Source: Nereocystis luetkeana (taxonomy: Eukaryota; Sar; Phaeophyceae; Laminariales; Laminariaceae). Taken from it: a stretch of DNA of 64,000 bases. The notes beneath the pieces were generated by a model. That model saw only the letters and a list, made by a program, of their open reading frames with translations, had not been told where the DNA came from and did no database searches. This document shows positions 6,403-62,225 of this stretch, piece by piece. The DNA lies in NCBI GenBank assembly GCA_031213475.1, contig JARUPZ010000019.1, positions 7,614,870 through 7,678,869 on the forward strand, given 5' to 3'. Numbering within the stretch: position 1 is the first letter of the stretch; each line of letters opens with the position of its first letter. The translations under genes were made by a program, and so were the position numbers.

Positions 6403-7292
6403 ACAAGGCGCTACGCTCCACGGGCGGCCTACGCCGCCCGCTACGCTCGCTCAGGAAGGAAAAAAGTAGACGAAATTATGCGAAGCGAACAGAGGTCCAC
6501 GATTGAGTTTAGTTTTTTCAAGGATCGTAATTGCAAACCGGCGACTTGATAATGCCAAGAGTCCCGCCGCCATGCTTCAGGAAAAAACAGCTCCGACATC
6601 AGCTTGGATGCCACATATTATACGCTTCGCGTCGCGGATGTCGTACGTACGTACATACACCCCAGGTAGGGTACTACTGTCTGTACCTATTTTCTTCTCT
6701 CGATATGCTTTACCTGGTATGTCTGTACTGTATGTACGAAGAAAGCGAAAGCACGACACAGCAGCAAAAACGATGAAAATGAAACCGAAAACTCGGAAAG
6801 GAAAAAAAATCCCCGTCCCTTCTCGTGAAATATTTTTCTGCCTGATTGGAACACACCTTACACCCGGTCGAAAAGAAGAAAAGAAACAAATCGCACAGAA
6901 GAGCTTCTCTCTCAGCCTCGTACGCCGCCCGCCCCTCTCGCGACCACCTCGCTACCGATTCGGTCCGGGTAAAGCTTTTATCACTCTCTGCCACAATCAG
7001 CCCCGTCGCCCGCCTCGCGTGAAGCCCAGTGCTCACCGTGGCCGTTGTTCGCCAGCTCGATAACGTTGGTGTTCAAACTGCACACCTCCCTCTTTCAACC
7101 TCAGCCTGGTCGCAAAAATAAGCACCGCTTGAATATTATCTTGCCCCCCCGAACGAACTTTATAACTCGTACATACTCTATCAACAATCATAAATCGAAG
7201 CCAGACAAAGCCCGTTCATGCATCCCTCGTGTCTCGAGGCACACGCGACGCCTAGGCACGAAAGCGGCGACCGCGCTCCTTGCAACCCCCCC
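6403..7292 (+). repeat. Family T repeat, copy 1 (3'-shortened)
   Basis: First of three direct tandem copies of a non-coding repeat. It starts ACAAGGCGCTACGCTCC, followed by a GC hairpin (GGGCGGC, loop CTAC, GCCGCCC). It then runs through AGAGGTCCACGATTGAGTTT, CCCCAGGTAGGGTACTACTG, CGATTCGGTCCGGGTAAAGC and the CTCGAGGCACACGCGACGCC block. It stops at a C run near 7290 and lacks the final ~250 bp found in copies 2-4. Open frames differ between copies because of indels, so I do not regard it as coding. Confidence 0.9.
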
Positions 7293-8412
7293 TCGCTCCG
7301 CGGGCGGCCTACGCCGCCCGCTACGCTCGCTCAGGAAGGAGAAAGTACATGAAATTATGCGAAGCGAACAGAGGTCCACGATTGAGTTTAGTGTTTTCAA
7401 GGATCGTAATTGCAAACCGGCGACTTGATAATGCCAAGAGTCCCGCCGTCATTCAGGAAAAAACAGCTCCGACGTCAGCTTGGATGCCACATATACGCTT
7501 CGCGTCGCGGATGTCGTACGTACGTACATACACCCCAGGTAGGGTACTACTGTCTGTACTTATTTTCTTCTCTCGATATGCTCTATGTCTGTACTGTATG
7601 TACGAAGAAAGCGAAAGCACAGCACGGCACAGCAGCAAAAACAATGAAAATGAAACCGCAAACTCGGAAAGGAAAAAAAATCCCCGCCCCTTCACGTGCA
7701 ATATTTTTCTGCCTGATTGGAACACCTTACACCCGGTCGAAAAGAAGAAAAGAAAAAGACGCATTCTCTCTCAGCCTCGTACGCCGCCGTACGCCGCCCG
7801 CCCCTCTCGCGACCACCTCGCTACCGATTCGGTCCGGGTGAAGCTTTTATCACTCTCTGCCACAATCAGCCCCGTCGCCCACCCCGCGTGAAGCCCGGTG
7901 CTCACCGTGGCCGTCGTTCGCCAGCTCGATAACGTTGGTGTTCAAACTGCACACCTCCCTCTTTCAACTTTAGCGTGGCCGCAAAAATAAGCACCACTTG
8001 AATATTATCTTGCCCTCCCGAACGACCTTTATAAAATCGTACATACTCTATCAACAATCATAAATCAAAGGCAGACAAAGCCCGTTCATGCATCCTCGTG
8101 TCTCGAGGCACACGCGACGCCTAGGTACGAAAGCAGCGACCGCGCTCATTGCAACCCCCCCTCTACCCGCCAGCACCCGCTGGCACCCGCGACGGTGCCG
8201 GGTCCTCCCGCGATGCCGTGCTCGGAGAACACGCACGCACACGGAACGAAAGAAGAAAAAAGGAAGAAATGACCGAGAAAACAAAGAACTGCTTGCTGGA
8301 AAGGTCCGGCAAGTAATGAAAGGAGGCGGTTTGGAAGTGGGAGCTCTGAGAGGCCAGGGATGCACCAACCGAGCACGCTCAGGGGTTGTGATCTAAGTAT
8401 GTAGTTCTATGT
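7293..8412 (+). repeat. Family T repeat, copy 2
   Basis: Full-length tandem copy joined to copy 1 at the GC hairpin (7299-7322). It carries the terminal block missing from copy 1: CACCCGCTGGCACCCGCGAC, CGGAGAACACGCACGCACAC, and the end CTCAGGGGTTGTGATCTAAG, followed by TATGTAGTTCTATGTATG. Small indels relative to copies 1 and 3 break all shared reading frames. Confidence 0.9.
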
Positions 8413-15619: not shown

Positions 15620-16080
15620 ACGAAGTTCGTTGCATCTATCTCCCCGTCCGGCATTGAGGGCGAGTCGTATACATGACCATCACACTATGCACGTTGATGC
15701 ACTCGGCACGTGGAACACGCCCCCTGTCCCCTACCCCAGGGGCCCTGGCTGCTTCTGCGGAGTGTGCACGATGCTGCGTAATCCAACAGCCAAGGTGTAA
15801 TCTATTCGTCTACCAAACGTATCAATAGTCTGGCCGTCATTTATATGTTTTATCCCAAAGGCGTTCCATCTTGTAGACACCCTCAACCCTTACGTTATAC
15901 TTGCGACATACCAAGGGTAATATGCAATGCCAAGCACACATATTCTTGCGTAAAAAAAAATACTAGTGGGACGCCCGAGAGCTTGGGTCAGCAAGCTTTG
16001 ATGAAAATCGACGAACAGTAGTGGGAATGCTATTAATACTATAAATGCTAAACCCTATGCGCCATAAAAAATGAAGGCAC
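15620..16080. other. No gene recognised
   Basis: No interpretable frame. A TATTAATA-type motif lies near 16030 and a 19-G run follows at 16084-16102. Confidence 0.4.
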
Positions 16081-22176: not shown

Positions 22177-22329
22177 AAAGAGGGCTGATGAACACTGTCA
22201 CAGTTAGTAGTATGCACTGGCAGTAGCAATCTACTGATTGACATGGGCACTATATTGGCCAGTAGTTTTCATCGTACGCACGCCCAAGAAACCCGCTATA
22301 TAACATACCAGGTACCAGGTACAGCAGTA

Positions 22330-23816: not shown

Positions 23817-24110
23817 GTTTTAACTCTCAGCGATCTTCTGGACAAGCCGTGGTCACAGGTGTCTACCCCTCTCCCCCCCGGTACGTGCCTTCAGTTCCAT
23901 CGCGCATAGGGTTGATCCAGCATTCCCACCGCTCGTCGAGTCTTATCGAAAGTTGCTAACTCACGCTCTCTCGCTTTTCGGTGTTAATTTTTGATAGATA
24001 CAAGAAAGAGTCTTTACGAGCTCGTATGCACTCGGCGAGGCTTGCACCCACGAAATTGATCTCAGTAGGCACGCGGACCACCTACCAAGTATATACCTAC
24101 TGGTGTGCTT
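23817..24110 (-). mobile_element. Putative SINE-2 copy 1
   Basis: Matches 25890-26170 over about 280 bp (CTCAGCGATCTTCTGG, GGTACGTGCCTTCA, TTATCGAAAGTTGC, GCACGCGGACCACCTACC). Read on the minus strand, the end near 24090-24030 has a possible T-arm/B-box (GGGTGCAAGCC). Its middle resembles the SINE-1 body. The assignment as a second tRNA-SINE is inference from two copies. Confidence 0.5.
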
Positions 24111-25889: not shown

Positions 25890-26172
25890 ATTTTACCCTC
25901 AGCGATCTTCTGGGCAAGCCGTGTGAGGTCACCGGTGTCGTCCCTTGTCCTCCCGGTAGTGCGTGCCTTCATTTGTATCGCGCATACCTGGTAGGGTTCT
26001 GCATTCCCACTCTTCGTCGACTTTCATCGAATCTTGCCAACTCACGCTCTCGCGCTTTCAGCTATTCAATGTGCTTGCGAGAAAAAGTCCTTACGAGTAT
26101 GCACTCGGTGAGACGAGAACCCACGAAGGAAGTTTATGTAGCCGGCACGCGGACAACCTGCCAAGCCGGCTC
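25890..26172 (-). mobile_element. Putative SINE-2 copy 2, with TACCTGGTA insert
   Basis: Sister of 23817-24110. Where that copy reads CGCATAGGGTT, this one reads CGCATACCTGGTAGGGTT, an insertion at 25985-25993. On the minus strand a possible T-arm (GTGGGTTCTCGTCTCAC, 5-bp stem and 7-nt loop) lies near 26120-26100. Confidence 0.5.
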
Positions 26173-28979: not shown

Positions 28980-29075
28980 GTCATATACCTGGTATATATA
29001 TTATATGTATATATATTCCTATCATATACCTGGTATATATACCAGGTACATATATGTATATATATCGTGCGACTC
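28980..29075. repeat. AT-rich TACCTGGTA cluster
   Basis: TACCTGGTA near 28986 and 29030 and TACCAGGTA near 29040, embedded in TATATATA runs. The last two form an inverted pair separated by a few bases. Confidence 0.7.
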
Positions 29076-38392: not shown

Positions 38393-38968
38393 TAAGGATT
38401 GCTACCATGCTACCCAGCCGTAGCCAGTGGCCAAAACCGAGTCGCTGAACGTTATCATAGTCGCCTGTAGCGAGTGGGCCACATCAGCAATTCAAAGTGC
38501 TACGGCAGTACAAACAGTGCGATAGTCCAATGGCCGAATCAGTAGTATGCGGTGGAACTCCGTGGGATCAGTTATCTCAGTTTTACATGCGACGGAACCC
38601 AAAGTACCGTTTTGAGCTCAGCCGAGTTTTTCGTTCGAGTTTCGGTTTTCACCGCATGCTTCGGGTCTTGGGACTTAAGAGCTCCGTGATGGATCGACCC
38701 TCTACACGCACACTCGTCCACTTCACATCACTTCCCTTCTCTTCCTTTTTTATCTTCCTCCTCATCCTGTTGTGTTGGACACAAAACCGATACTCGACAC
38801 TGGATTTCAGCGCCGTATTATTTTGTACTGTTTTCTGAGAGCTAAGCATGAACAACAACCAGTCGGTTCGACACCGGCTGAAGTGCTTACCTCTGCGGCG
38901 CACTGCCTGATCTACAGTAGCTCAGGAGCCACGCACACCTCTGCGGGGATTCCGCCAAGAGACTATAC
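38393..38968 (+). repeat. Long direct repeat (LTR-like), downstream copy
   Basis: Counterpart of 34946-35740, shorter by one ~170-bp block. Both copies differ by many substitutions, so insertion is not recent. Confidence 0.6.
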
Positions 38969-46107: not shown

Positions 46108-48470
46108 GAGGGAGAGAGAGTGCTTGATATGCTCGCGAGTTTCGATCGGGTTTACATGTTCTTCGCTCCTGCGATGCACGCAGTTCTACTGTAGTACGCT
46201 TCAGGGAGGACGAAGACATCGTGAGGGATCTGGTCCACCTCGAGAAGGATGTTGGTGGTCGGAAAAGAGGTGCCGTTAACATGCGTGCGAACAGAATAAG
46301 TGTGGGGCATGTTGTACGCCGATGACGCAGGAATTGTCTCGAAGCCGGCAGGGGGACTTCCTAACATGAAGACAGTGATCGTGACTGTCTTCGAAGCAGC
46401 AGGCCGTACGGTTTCGGAAAAGAAGACGCAGACGATGCTCCTACGAGCACGGGACCAGCCAACCACAGTTTCACCGCTCGCCATCGAAGCAGCTGGCCAG
46501 AGGTATATACACACAGACAACCCTGCTCTTCTACGACGTACCTCGGCGGAATTATCCTCGAAGACGCTGACCTCTCGCTCGAAATCGAACGACGCATTCG
46601 TTTCATGTGGGCATGCCTCAAACGGTTCGACCCGGAGCTGTACGATGTCAAGACGACCCCACGTAGTCTGAAAGTCCGCATTTTGAAGGCCGAGGTGGCC
46701 GAGGCACTGCAGTCTGCCGTACGGATGTGTGACGTGGACTCTGAGTGCGCAACACTTCACCAGACTCCCATTGGTGCACCACCAGGCCCTCATGGAATTC
46801 GTTGGCTTCCGGCGCCGACAGCGTGGCGACTACACGACCCTCTCGTACGCCGAGGCCCTCAAGAAGACACGATGCGAGGGCATCCACACGACCAACCGTA
46901 AACGGAGGCTCTTCTTTCCGGGGCCCTTGGTGCGGCAACACAAGGGGTGATTACCCAGTCGGGTTATGTTTGCGATGATAACCGCGGTGAGGAGGGCCGG
47001 AGACCGGGCGGGCAGCCAAAAACGTTCGGCATAGATGTCTTGTTGAAGACCTCAAGGAGTTTTGAGCCCCCGAGGGGTCGACGGTACATACCCCGTTCGT
47101 GTTTGAAGTAGAGACCGCGGTGTGAGCCGTTGATTGACAGAAGACGGGCAAGTGGTACCGGGGGGTGCTCAAAGCAGCCGAACGGGTCATGGTCAGGTGG
47201 CAAAAGGATGAGGCGCAGACAGCACCATACATCCGCCGTAGGTGATGCTCTTGGGAATGGGAAGGGGGTGGGGGCAACAGTCGTAAGGACACAGCGGTTG
47301 GCGAAAGCAGGAAGGAGACAGCCGGCAGGGTAGCAAGGTACCAGGCCGACTGGGGAGGAGAGCCTGTTTCGGCCACTCGTACGTACCGCAAACCTCTGGG
47401 GATGCTTCGAATGCGACGCTGTTGTGTTGCGTTGTGTTGTGTTTTTTCCCCACCCTTTCCTTCTTATTCCTGAAACCTGTTTTTCTTGTTGGTTGTGTGG
47501 TTCTGTTTTGCTTCCTGATTCCTTTGTTTAGTGTGTTGTCCGTAGCAGCTCCACCTGACGGGTAAAACAGCAAGATGCTACAGCGCCTCTCGTGTTAACT
47601 CTAGTTTTCTTTCGTTTTGTTGCGGTCGTTTCTTGCCTTTGATTTCCGTCCGGCTTTTTACGCGAATTTCTGTGTACTTCGTATTTTTTATTTGTTTTCT
47701 TCATCCTGCTGTACTAACTTTGATTGTTTCACCCGTTTTTCCTCCCTGTCCTTTTTACGGAAAGAAGTTCTTGTTTTTTGGTTTGATGACAAGCCTGGTT
47801 TTGTTTATTTTTTTATTGCCTGGCGCAGCCTCTCCGGGGGTTGGGGCACGTGTGACGAAAACAGGAAGAAGGGGACAGCCAGGATAACAAGGTACCAGAC
47901 CGACGAGTAGGTAGAACCTACCTGTCTATGCTGCAAGTACTCGTACCACAAACTGCTGCGGCTGCCAGGGGGGTGTTTTTCTTTTTTGTTTCGTTGTGCT
48001 TCGGCTTGCCTGTTGTCCGTTCTTGGGTTCGTAGCCGTACTCCGTCTCTTCGTATGTGGTGGTTTAGTTTTGTTTGCCTGTTTTTCTGTGTTGTCTGTCA
48101 CATCTCCTTCGGGGGGCACGACACTTAGTTTTTTTTGTTCCCGATTGCTTTTCCTTTGCTTCTTTCGATTTTCCTCTCTTTTATAGAATATGAACGTCGT
48201 GCCTGCTGTACCCAGTACGATGGCATTACACTACCAGGTATTATACTATTAATTCTATTAATATTAATAACTGTCTGCTCTCCTTACTGCATACTGGTAG
48301 CAATGTACTGTATTAATAGTATCTCTGACTACTCTGCTGTGTCGTAGTTTTGTGACCACGGAGCTTGTATCTCTCAAGGATTGAAGGATCGGCACGGACA
48401 CTGGTTGTGCTGCATGTCGACGGATAGAAAGAACGGTTTAATTTCATGATTCATTATGAACACACACACC
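46108..48470 (+). mobile_element. LINE-A copy with part of the RT domain, through to the AC tail
   Basis: Longest LINE-A copy. It contains RT palm sequence, the post-RT C-terminal region (GKWYRGVLKAAERVMVRW near 47140-47200), a long T-rich 3' UTR (47430-48200) and an (AC)n end at 48460-48469. Its left end abuts MITE-1 copy 13, so either the LINE was truncated there or the MITE marks the junction. Several frameshifts make it non-functional. Confidence 0.85.
46290..46945 (+). pseudogene. Non-LTR retrotransposon reverse transcriptase, frameshifted
   Basis: RNA-dependent DNA polymerase fragment of LINE-A. The frame at 46300 opens with GMLYADDAGIVSKPAGGLPN, the Y-A-D-D active-site motif C with both Asp residues present, followed by VTVFEAAGRTVSEKKTQTML. 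A frameshift near 46540-46600 moves homology to another frame (MWACLKRFDPELYDVKTTPR, LKVRILKAEVAEAL). A further shift near 46730 leads to FVGFRRRQRGDYTTLSYAEA and LKKTRCEGIHTTNRKRRLFF. The endonuclease and RT fingers expected upstream are absent or decayed. Confidence 0.85.
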
Positions 48471-49973: not shown

Positions 49974-50082
49974 TATTACGGAGGGCCATAGTTAACAGGA
50001 CCTATGGTATACATAAAAACCTATATGTTTAACAATTTTTACTAACAATATTTGGTCCTGTTAACTATGGCCCCCCGTAATA
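49974..50082 (-). mobile_element. MITE-1 copy 15 (subfamily A) in CTA array
   Basis: TATTACGGAGGGCCATAGTT to TAACTATGGCCCCCCGTAAT, bounded by CTACTACTA on both sides. Confidence 0.94.
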
Positions 50083-50160
50083 CTACTACTACCACTACTA
50101 TTAGTACAACTACTACTACTACCACTACTACCGCTACTGCTACGACGACGTATTAATACT

Positions 50161-50262
50161 ATTACGGGGGACCGGACAAAATTGTTACTTAATAGTAAAA
50201 ATAGTAAAAAATATAGGTTTTTATGTATACCACAGGTCCTACTAACTATGGCCCCCCGTAAC
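50161..50262 (+). mobile_element. MITE-1 copy 16 in CTA array, left arm deleted
   Basis: ATTACGGGGGACCGGACAAA loses the CATAGTTAATA part; the right TIR is TAACTATGGCCCCCCGTAAC. Confidence 0.85.
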
Positions 50263-50263
50263 A

Positions 50264-50299
50264 CTACTACTACTACTACTATTAATACTACTCCTACTC

Positions 50300-50332
<33 letters not shown>

Positions 50333-50340
50333 TTAATACA

Positions 50341-50404
<64 letters not shown>

Positions 50405-50433
50405 TTAATACTACTACCACTACTACTACTACG

Positions 50434-50473
<40 letters not shown>

Positions 50474-50494
50474 TTAATACTACTACCACTACTA

Positions 50495-50528
<34 letters not shown>

Positions 50529-50557
50529 CACTACTACCACTATTACTACTGCTACTG

Positions 50558-50604
<47 letters not shown>

Positions 50605-50611
50605 GCTACTA

Positions 50612-50689
<78 letters not shown>

Positions 50690-50716
50690 TTAATACCACT
50701 ATTAACACTACTATTA
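50264..50716. repeat. (CTA)n microsatellite, ~450 bp, with TATTAATA interruptions
   Basis: ACT units with occasional ACC, GCT and GAC changes; TATTAATA occurs within it at about 50280, 50332, 50403, 50472, 50688 and 50713. It is open in several frames as poly-Thr, poly-Val or similar, which is a property of the unit. Confidence 0.97.
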
Positions 50717-50879
50717 ATACTACTGCAACTACTACTTATACTAATACGACTGCTGCGACTACTATTGTACCTGGTAGTTTTTTCAGCGTATTTTGCCTCC
50801 AGTCTCGGTCGAAGCTAATACTACAAATAGTACAGACTAATACCACTATCGCTACTACAACAGTATGACGTACTGAAGT

Positions 50880-51122: not shown

Positions 51123-51216
51123 TAACAACTCTAGTCCCGTGTTGGGGGCAAACCACTCAATTTAGAAGTAATTTGTGCCCGAAACGGGACTGCAGTACTA
51201 TTAATAGAAGGGTTTA
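51123..51216. mobile_element. MITE-2 copy with TATTAATA insert, first of three in tandem
   Basis: AACTCTAGTCCCGTGTTGGG to AAACGGGACTGCAGTACTAT. At 51199-51206 TATTAATA replaces the TA of the usual CAGT(C/T)CTAAAAGGG end. Confidence 0.85.
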
Positions 51217-51316: not shown

Positions 51317-51525
51317 AACCCTTTTAGGACCGCAGTCCCGTTTTGGTGACAAACTATTACGGGGGACCATAGTTAATGGAACCTATGGCATACGTAAAAA
51401 CCTACATATTTCGCTTTTTTTACTAACAATATTTGGTGTTATTAACTACCAGGTATGGTCCCCCGCAATACCTAAAATTGGACTGGTTTGTCCCGAAAAT
51501 ACGACTGCGGTCCTGAAAGGGTCAA
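51315..51525. mobile_element. MITE-2 copy, third in tandem, split by MITE-1
   Basis: Left arm AACCCTTTTAGGACCGCAGT to GGTGACAAAC; right arm CCTAAAATTGGACTGGTTTG to GCGGTCCTGAAAGGGTCAA. MITE-1 copy 17 sits between them with TA on both sides. Removing it restores the usual AAACTAC..AAATTTGACTGG order, so the target duplication is TA. Confidence 0.92.
51354..51471 (-). mobile_element. MITE-1 copy 17 (subfamily A), nested in MITE-2, with TACCAGGTA insert
   Basis: TATTACGGGGGACCATAGTT to CCCCCGCAATA. The right arm reads ATTAACTACCAGGTATGGTC at 51441-51460 where sisters have ATTAACTATGGTC, so TACCAGGTA at 51447-51455 is an insertion into this copy. Confidence 0.94.
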
Positions 51526-51589: not shown

Positions 51590-51699
51590 TATTACGGGGG
51601 ACCATAGTTAATGGGACCTATGCTATACATCAAAACCTATGTATTTAACCATTTTTACTAACAATATTTGGTCCTATTAACTATGGACCCCCGTAATAG
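51590..51699 (-). mobile_element. MITE-1 copy 18 (subfamily A)
   Basis: TATTACGGGGGACCATAGTT to AACTATGGACCCCCGTAATA. Confidence 0.94.
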
Positions 51700-52430: not shown

Positions 52431-52540
52431 TATTACGGGGGACCATAGTTAATAGGACCAAATTTTGTTAGTAAAAATGTTTAAATATATAGGTTTTTAT
52501 GTATACCACAGGTCCTATTAACTATGGTCCCCCGTAATAC
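52431..52540 (+). mobile_element. MITE-1 copy 19 (subfamily A), first of a tandem pair
   Basis: TATTACGGGGGACCATAGTT to AACTATGGTCCCCCGTAATA. Separated from the next copy by CTGCTG between two TAs. Confidence 0.95.
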
Positions 52541-54253: not shown

Positions 54254-54372
54254 GTATTACGGGGGACCATAGTTAATACCTGGTAGGACCAAATATTGTT
54301 AGTAAAAATGGTCAAATATATAGGTTTTTATCTATATACCATAGGTCGTATTAACTATGGTCCCCCGTAGTA
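54254..54372 (+). mobile_element. MITE-1 copy 21 (subfamily A) with TACCTGGTA insert
   Basis: CATAGTTAATACCTGGTAGG at 54269-54288 against CATAGTTAATAGG in sister copies. Removing CCTGGTA restores the consensus exactly. Confidence 0.95.
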
Positions 54373-59709: not shown

Positions 59710-60160
59710 TAAAATACACGTATATGCGTATATCGTAGATTGTCTCACTCGAGCTTGCCAAAGGAAGGTAGGTGCCTTTTTGTTATTGCAAAGATGACGG
59801 TGGCGGCGTGGCAGAGCAAAAGGAAACAGGTATTCATAAGAGATGCTCGCCCTGGCTCGGCTTATTTTTTCGTTGCGTCGATGCCGAGATCCTGCTGACG
59901 TTTCTGGAAGCAGGTGTGCACGTAGAGTTTCGAGGTATGTCGAGAGTTCATCGTCTCCTTTGGACGTGGAAATTTGTTGTCTGTTTCACCCCCTCCGTCG
60001 TACAAGGCATGGGAATTCAAGCCCTTGTGTAGGGTGCAACAGGTGTGTTACATACGACGTCTGTAAGTAGGACGGGCGGGGCGAAGTTAATAATTTTAGC
60101 CTGGAGTTGTTGAAAAATTATACCAGGTACCAGGTAAGTAGTTACTACGTATTGCGCTTG
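59710..60160. other. No gene recognised
   Basis: The frame 59772-60032 (86 codons) has no domain. TACCAGGTACCAGGTA at about 60120-60136 is a direct double of the micro-palindrome. Confidence 0.4.
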
Positions 60161-62084: not shown

Positions 62085-62225
62085 ATATATAGCATATATT
62101 GTACCTGGTATAATGTTATACAATACTATACCTGGTACCTGTAGTATTTATTGTATCATACCTGGTATATTTTGTACCAGGTTTATCGCATGCGTGGTAT
62201 TACGTACCTGGTGCAATGCAATCTG
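62085..62225. repeat. Dense TACCTGGTA cluster
   Basis: Motif or close variant near 62102, 62130, 62159, 62176 and 62204 in 120 bp. This is the densest cluster in the window. Confidence 0.8.

Follow-up and report, generated by a model that had tools for sequence, protein, structure and literature searches.

We have analysed a 64-kb stretch of the Nereocystis luetkeana genome (the window, taken over its whole length), which carries 42 sites of the nine-letter word TACCTGGTA or its complement TACCAGGTA on both strands. This word, written here as TACC(A/T)GGTA or TACCWGGTA, has a palindromic core with an A/T centre. One site (54277..54285, + strand) lies inside a copy of MITE-1 (54257..54370), of the 105-bp type with a TIR starting TTACGGGGGACCATAG and with a length of 114 bp in this copy. 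Removal of CCTGGTA from it gives GTTAATAGGACC, with 39 empty-TA matches (best 22/22); on both strands of the window, the single GTTAATACCTGGTAGGACC at 54272 stands against 12 plain GTTAATAGGACC. A second MITE-1 copy is filled at a different TA (51447..51455, − strand; 29 empty-TA matches, best 20/22), where AACTACCAGGTATGG at 51444 compares with 26 plain AACTATGG, again on both strands of the window. An insert in a SINE-like repeat (25985..25993, + strand; best 19/22), absent from the matches of the stricter TA-Nk-TA scan given below, appears as CGCATACCTGGTAGGGTT at 25981 against plain CGCATAGGGTT at 23903 and, on the opposite strand, at 16051. These three sister comparisons had been drawn in a first-pass annotation of the window and proved exact, the sister coordinate of the last being 23903 instead of 23901. 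A third repeat is filled at 6711..6719 (+ strand), with two empty-TA matches, the best of them at window position 7524 (21/22).

Some of the sites stand close together. Tandem doubles of TACCAGGTACCAGGTA occupy 22306..22321 (− strand), where either a second event at the edge TA or a tandem duplication may have acted, and 60121..60136 (− strand). Two inverted copies (TACCTGGTATATATACCAGGTA, 29027..29048) start 13 bp apart in a TA-rich tract, and three TACCTGGTA are clustered within 66 bp on the + strand (62102..62167). Among neighbouring copies there are 26 gaps of 101 bp or less, nine of which are tandem doubles. Tiny elements of the form TACCWGG-n-CCWGGTA were considered and rejected, as the non-tandem neighbour gaps have no constant length. 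The clustering exceeded that in a simulation with uniform use of TA, but not that in a target-weighted simulation, whose model is overfitted, and therefore no local hopping is claimed.

The window also contains a LINE-like ORF (848-1621) that matches proteins named from Laminaria digitata and Scytosiphon promiscuus, several of which carry the reverse-transcriptase domain PF00078. A Pfam search of nine window ORFs, including this one, returned no match.

Abundance and decay of the word

The first-pass annotation had estimated some forty copies of the motif in 64 kb against about 0.5 by chance; 42 copies were counted, whereas 100 dinucleotide-preserving shuffles of the window averaged 0.41 and never exceeded 4. 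Genome-wide (465,085,209 bases, 1,987 contigs), TACCTGGTA and its complement occur 182,395 times (91,155 + 91,240), whereas the control word, TACCTGGTA read backwards, occurs only 1,744 times (883 + 861). The density is thus about one per 2.5 kb and the enrichment about hundredfold, and it extends outside the window, which excludes the lack of enrichment there that the annotation had named as a possible refutation. In a 264-kb sample consisting of the window and twenty 10-kb stretches, the central letter of TACC-N-GGTA words was A or T in 107 of 110 cases; a larger set of 313 kb was used for the insertion and parent tests. Other enriched palindromes (GATCTAGATC, CTATCGATAG and TACTC(C/G)GAGTA) were dropped, being clustered at one or a few loci with many closely spaced, tandem-repeat-like copies. 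Literature searches returned no earlier report of a TACC(A/T)GGTA repeat among the matches listed, which is not proof of absence.

The word decays. Its one-mismatch neighbours number 121, where 58 permuted control words have 44 on average (sd 19), and they lean towards transitions: nine transition types account for 63 of them and 17 transversion types for 58. The excess of about 0.6 neighbour per exact site corresponds to several per cent per base, with a wide error. This decay counts against fresh somatic junctions, and also against a maintained short motif, such as a binding or methylation site, that would have originated by point mutation and been kept by selection. A very high copy number, a palindromic form and diverse flanks would all suit such a motif; CCWGG is a methylatable site, and HIP1, the highly iterated palindrome of cyanobacteria, is likewise a short palindrome iterated genome-wide. 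Unlike a maintained palindrome of the HIP1 type, however, the word described here is gained by insertion at TA, as a clean 7-bp insert in the testable cases (see below), and its abundant transition-rich mutated neighbours are those of unmaintained sequence, so that we give a maintained motif very little credence.

Gain of seven base pairs at TA

For the insertion test, which took in all sites with sufficient flanking sequence, the 7 bp were removed by script and the joined flanks matched against the rest of the 313 kb; a clean case required a relative reading plain TA, with a cut-off over 22 columns of at least 17 (nominal) or at least 19 (strict). A junction-spanning relative was found for 19 of the 124 TACCWGGTA sites tested, and 11 of these 19 have a plain-TA relative at 17/22 or better, eight of them at 19/22 or better. 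The strict cases are L016:831, L017:6298, L030:2269 and L035:2078 in the sampled loci, and 6711, 25985, 51447 and 54277 in the window. In all eight, both edges of the insert are formed by the duplicated target TA and the empty copies keep a single TA. Two pairs among them are related: L016:831 and L035:2078 occupy the same site of one repeat and may represent a single inherited event, and window 54277 and L030:2269 share the same MITE-1 position. A double insert of 14 bp faces an empty relative at L008:1501. The relatives of window site 21273 have AG where TA is expected, and the site was therefore dropped from the clean cases; L006:1501, L010:4504, L019:6738, L021:5762 and L028:4420 were left out as marginal.

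The same test was applied to all TA-N5-TA words (1,248 words, 339 with a spanning relative), yielding 41 nominal matches, those of CC(A/T)GG included. At the strict cut-off, words other than CC(A/T)GG gave five matches in 320 by our count, one of which overlaps the insert at 54277. In the testable cases, TACC(A/T)GGTA thus arises via insertion at TA and not by substitution. The proposal of the first-pass annotation that one TA has become TA-CC(A/T)GG-TA, and that removal of 7 bp restores the sister sequence, is borne out by the eight strict cases among 19 testable sites, and in the clean cases the inserts do sit at TA. Its description of the word as a tiny mobile or copied insertion stands as regards recurrent insertion at TA; self-mobility is not needed, and nothing shows the 7-mer moving itself. 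An identity as a MITE-like mobile element fails for the insert, which has only 7 bp and diverse flanks. Five contig stretches compared for polymorphism were uninformative, being 100% identical assembly duplicates; these stretches of 8-10 kb (on C2:7915664, C809, C872, C1099 and C1378) indicate that the assembly contains redundant small contigs.

Genome-wide, exact matches at the MITE-1 TA of site 54277 comprise 424 filled and 21,233 empty copies, so that about 2% are filled. Both centre forms occur at this one fixed TA; a hand tally of 100 listed filled matches, in fixed MITE orientation, gave 67 with T and 33 with A, a ratio that is not 50:50. Inserts were also found at several different TAs of MITE-1. 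The element itself is unevenly distributed on contig C1, where the 100 listed empty matches extend no further than 15.45 Mb (about 6 per Mb, compared with a genome mean of about 46 per Mb) and where 15 filled matches, the first at 16.6 Mb, are found among the matches listed.

These data bear on the question of whether the word was merely copied along with repeats already carrying it, or multiplied by tandem slippage. The site shared by L016:831 and L035:2078 within one repeat, the 424 matches at one MITE-1 site with their centre bias, and, for slippage, the direct orientation of six of the nine tandem doubles are what such copying would produce. A spanning relative was found at only 19 of 124 sites, though, so that most sites are not in a repeat shared within the sample, and the use of several MITE-1 TAs and of both centres at one of them also argues against it; as a general origin, hitch-hiking or slippage is very hard to credit. 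Descent from one old subfamily, which the annotation had named as a possible refutation, is excluded for the whole set by the several TAs and several repeats involved; this exclusion does not extend to the 424 copies filled at the one MITE-1 site.

The flanks show what kind of TA is used. In 107 sites oriented by their centre, position −1 is a purine in 87% and position +9 a pyrimidine in 79%, and further preferences are mirrored at −3/+11 (A.43, T.49), −6/+14 (A.56, T.58) and −7/+15 (T.53, A.49); the mirrored preferences at −1, −3, −6 and −7 are also supported by 250 strand-counted flanks. The target is roughly W-A-n-n-A-n-R-TA plus its mirror image. A symmetric transposase complex would be expected to produce such a palindromic preference around the duplicated TA.

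MITE-1 and the other short words between TAs

MITE-1 provides a control within the same genome. It is a TA-flanked inverted-repeat element of 105 bp with the TIR TTACGGGGGACC (TTACGG). We identified 37 paired copies in 282 kb, of which 24 have TA on both sides by our reading; examples in the window lie at 49976-50080, 51592-51696 and 52433-52537, with 34 more in the window and loci. The copy at 52433..52537 (105 bp, TA on both sides) belongs to the element type that predicts the footprint TATTAATA. An end-proximal 17-mer of MITE-1 occurs 21,233 times in the genome.

The word TATTAATA is 9.8-fold enriched over a third-order Markov expectation (164 vs 16.8, both strands) and is dispersed, with at least 75 sites listed, some of them in (CTA)n tracts; 36 sites are in the window (e.g., 51199, 48311 and 23344) and others at L016:898, L023:6204 and L035:156. 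It forms a clean 6-bp insert at TA: of 81 sites examined, 23 were testable, and 10 of these have an empty relative; seven of the 10 reach at least 19 of 22 columns by our count, some in simple repeats. Removal of the copy at 51199..51206, for instance, cleanly matches a relative at 19/22. Its flanks prefer T, A and C at −3, −2 and −1 (0.59, 0.57 and 0.55), matching those of MITE-1 insertions at the same positions (0.68, 0.70 and 0.57; 44 ends). One internal TA of MITE-1 holds a nested MITE-1 in L023:1797, with CA for the right TA, and TATTAATA in L023:6960. The word is therefore most likely a second footprint class, that of MITE-1, whose excision would leave the element tips behind as TATTAATA. 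Excision footprints as a process in this genome are thus well supported. A long (CTA)n tract at window 50061-50760 contains seven copies of TATTAATA.

TACC(A/T)GGTA and TATTAATA have in common the TA target, a clean short insert and the same host repeats. They differ in the core, CC(A/T)GG against TTAA, and in the target, WA..A.R-TA against TAC-TA-GTA; moreover, MITE-1 elements are abundant, whereas no convincing parent with CC(A/T)GG ends was found in 313 kb. As the flank preferences differ, the parent of TACC(A/T)GGTA is most likely a different element.

A strict scan of all TA-Nk-TA words with k from 2 to 10 places both words at the top of their lengths. For k = 5, TACC(A/T)GGTA accounts for five of seven matches. 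For k = 4, TATTAATA leads with five of 23, the remaining 18 belonging to other words; the frequent ones among these come from (CTA)n, from telomere-like repeats and from words overlapping TATTAATA. The top word for k = 2, TAAATA (4 of 10), is not a footprint by our reading, and neither is that for k = 7, TACAGATCATA (5 of 14), which resembles a piece of a GATC-rich repeat. For k = 3, the top word is TAC(A/T)GTA, with three of six matches and clean cases at window 38913..38919 (21/22) and 46187..46193 (19/22) and at L035:2097. It acts as a third footprint class of the Sleeping Beauty type, for which these few cases are a pointer and not proof, given the small counts.

Excision as the likely origin of TACC(A/T)GGTA

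In our view, TACC(A/T)GGTA is most likely the footprint left by excision of a cut-and-paste transposon of the Tc1/mariner type that inserts at TA and duplicates it. The element would insert at a preferred TA; on its later excision, staggered cuts a few bases inside the element ends would leave 3' overhangs of approximately CCAGG (or CCTGG) on the flanks. These may then self-anneal through CC and GG around a single A-A (or T-T) mismatch, and repair would fix the centre as A or T, converting TA into TA-CC(A/T)GG-TA with a net gain of 7 bp. What we infer from the scars is the former presence of a longer element, the ends of this parent, the length of the overhang (4 or 5 nt) and annealing with a mismatch.

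The scheme follows a published precedent. According to an excerpt of PMC7827188, the cuts that the Sleeping Beauty and mariner transposases make in the non-transferred strand lie three nucleotides within the transposon; 3-nt 3' overhangs result, which the footprints match exactly. An overhang CAG would self-pair except for a central A-A mismatch and so give C(A/T)G; by the same logic, CCAGG (or CCTGG) would give CC(A/T)GG. A 4-nt overhang, CCAG, could also lead to this product if it paired with a shift of one base, but a 3-nt overhang would share only a single, mismatched base; the predicted stagger is hence 4 or 5 nt. The overhangs described for Tc1/mariner in the excerpted parts of PMC7827188 and PMC3878927 are of 2-3 nt, a length that 5 nt would exceed.

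Published Tc1/mariner footprints are A/T-centred, i.e., C(A/T)GTA and T(T/A)A, the former being that of Sleeping Beauty and Frog Prince, as an excerpt of PMC3878927 gives them. The first-pass annotation was therefore too strong in stating that no described element is like this one, while its option of a footprint of a TA-specific transposon is well supported. In the Sleeping Beauty and Frog Prince footprint TA-C(A/T)G-TA, too, the two TAs enclose a small palindrome with A or T in the middle, put down to the repair of 3' overhangs that pair with themselves, as we propose here; its core, however, has 3 bp, whereas here it is CC(A/T)GG, 5 bp, in up to 182,395 copies and with no parent identified. 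Footprints of Stowaway/Osmar5 elements in Triticeae and grasses consist of TIR pieces of 1-4 bp (PMC1925063, from an excerpt). They resemble the present case as recurrent TIR-tip remnants between TAs, but they are heterogeneous, in contrast to the one uniform 5-bp core described here. In rice, 8 of 94 excisions across DNA-transposon superfamilies were perfect. TACC(A/T)GGTA is most likely a longer version of the published footprint, new in its length and extraordinary in its abundance.

Several observations count against an origin by excision, namely that no parent was found, that the core is longer than published and published footprints are often messy, that the TA-Nk-TA scan also has top words which we do not read as footprints, that the centre at the MITE-1 site is not 50:50 and that site 21273 does not fit. 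The search for a parent covered 313 kb, under 0.1% of the genome, and none of the inverted repeats there with flanking TA and CC(A/T)GG at the start made a convincing element. The listed pairs with CC(A/T)GG ends were parts of MITE-1 or other repeats, or pairs of the 9-mer itself; at L003:2208 and L026:1388, TACCTGG and CCAGGTA are separated by 15 and 17 bp, and we took these two short cases for neighbouring footprints, while L035 offered a weak 11/16 pair with no convincing element ends. Mos1-type mariner ends begin CCAGG. Genome-wide profile searches gave no match for PF13358, with the controls detected, and none for PF01359, where no control was detected, so that the latter result is uninformative. 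PF03184 gave 28 matches; six of these DDE_1 loci were examined and had no end beginning CC(A/T)GG and no convincing ends (a weak 12/16 pair in L030 does not begin with CC, and L031 has poly-T pairs). Elements of this kind do exist in brown algae, as Ectocarpus is reported to have 17 Mariner-Tc1 families with about 12,000 copies (PMC12477816, from an excerpt).

The failure to find a convincing parent in 313 kb and the lack of PF13358 and PF01359 matches would suit direct insertion of the tips, in which transposase or repair adds CC(A/T)GG and a TA copy at TAs that never held a full element, by aborted transposition or tip capture. So would the very uniform product and its extreme number. However, MITE-1 and TATTAATA demonstrate the ordinary route of insertion followed by excision in this same genome, a few footprints of the Sleeping Beauty type are present, and hopping by an element of low copy number would be enough to reach so many copies under the rates assumed below; we hold direct insertion of tips to be quite unlikely. 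In programmed elimination, IES-like elements present in the germline or another life stage would be cut from the sequenced tissue with an identical junction; the uniformity of the junctions, which number up to 182,395, is compatible with this as well, and so is the failure of the 313-kb sample to show a convincing element still in place. Paramecium IESs have TA boundaries, which those of the present word resemble. We know of no programmed elimination in brown algae, and the word decays like inherited DNA (121 vs 44 neighbours, with the lean towards transitions), which makes this route most improbable in our view. That the words are not relics of ordinary hopping is on the whole unlikely; they would then stem either from programmed excision, which in the sequenced life stage of this brown alga would clear away a TA-inserting element so thoroughly as to leave almost none intact, or from a transposase pasting only element tips into TAs.

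Excision of a transposon could also account for the number. Assuming a divergence of a few per cent and a mutation rate of about 1e-9 per generation, 182,395 fixed scars would call for a rate of the order of 0.01 excisions per genome in each generation, or even less. At these assumed rates, a low-copy hopping element could make all the scars, yet be missing from 313 kb.

Excision scars are usually few and messy, and the history of DNA transposons is therefore read from the copies that stayed. One uniform scar at about one per 2.5 kb lets past departures be counted; the set could map the target preference of an unseen element and date its activity by decay, and the two footprint classes are comparable within the same repeats. 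This would make the excision-to-persistence ratio and break repair directly measurable, and the footprint points to a stagger that exceeds the 2-3 nt given for Tc1/mariner. Repeat annotators should also be aware that mobile DNA can have a palindrome of nine letters as its signature.
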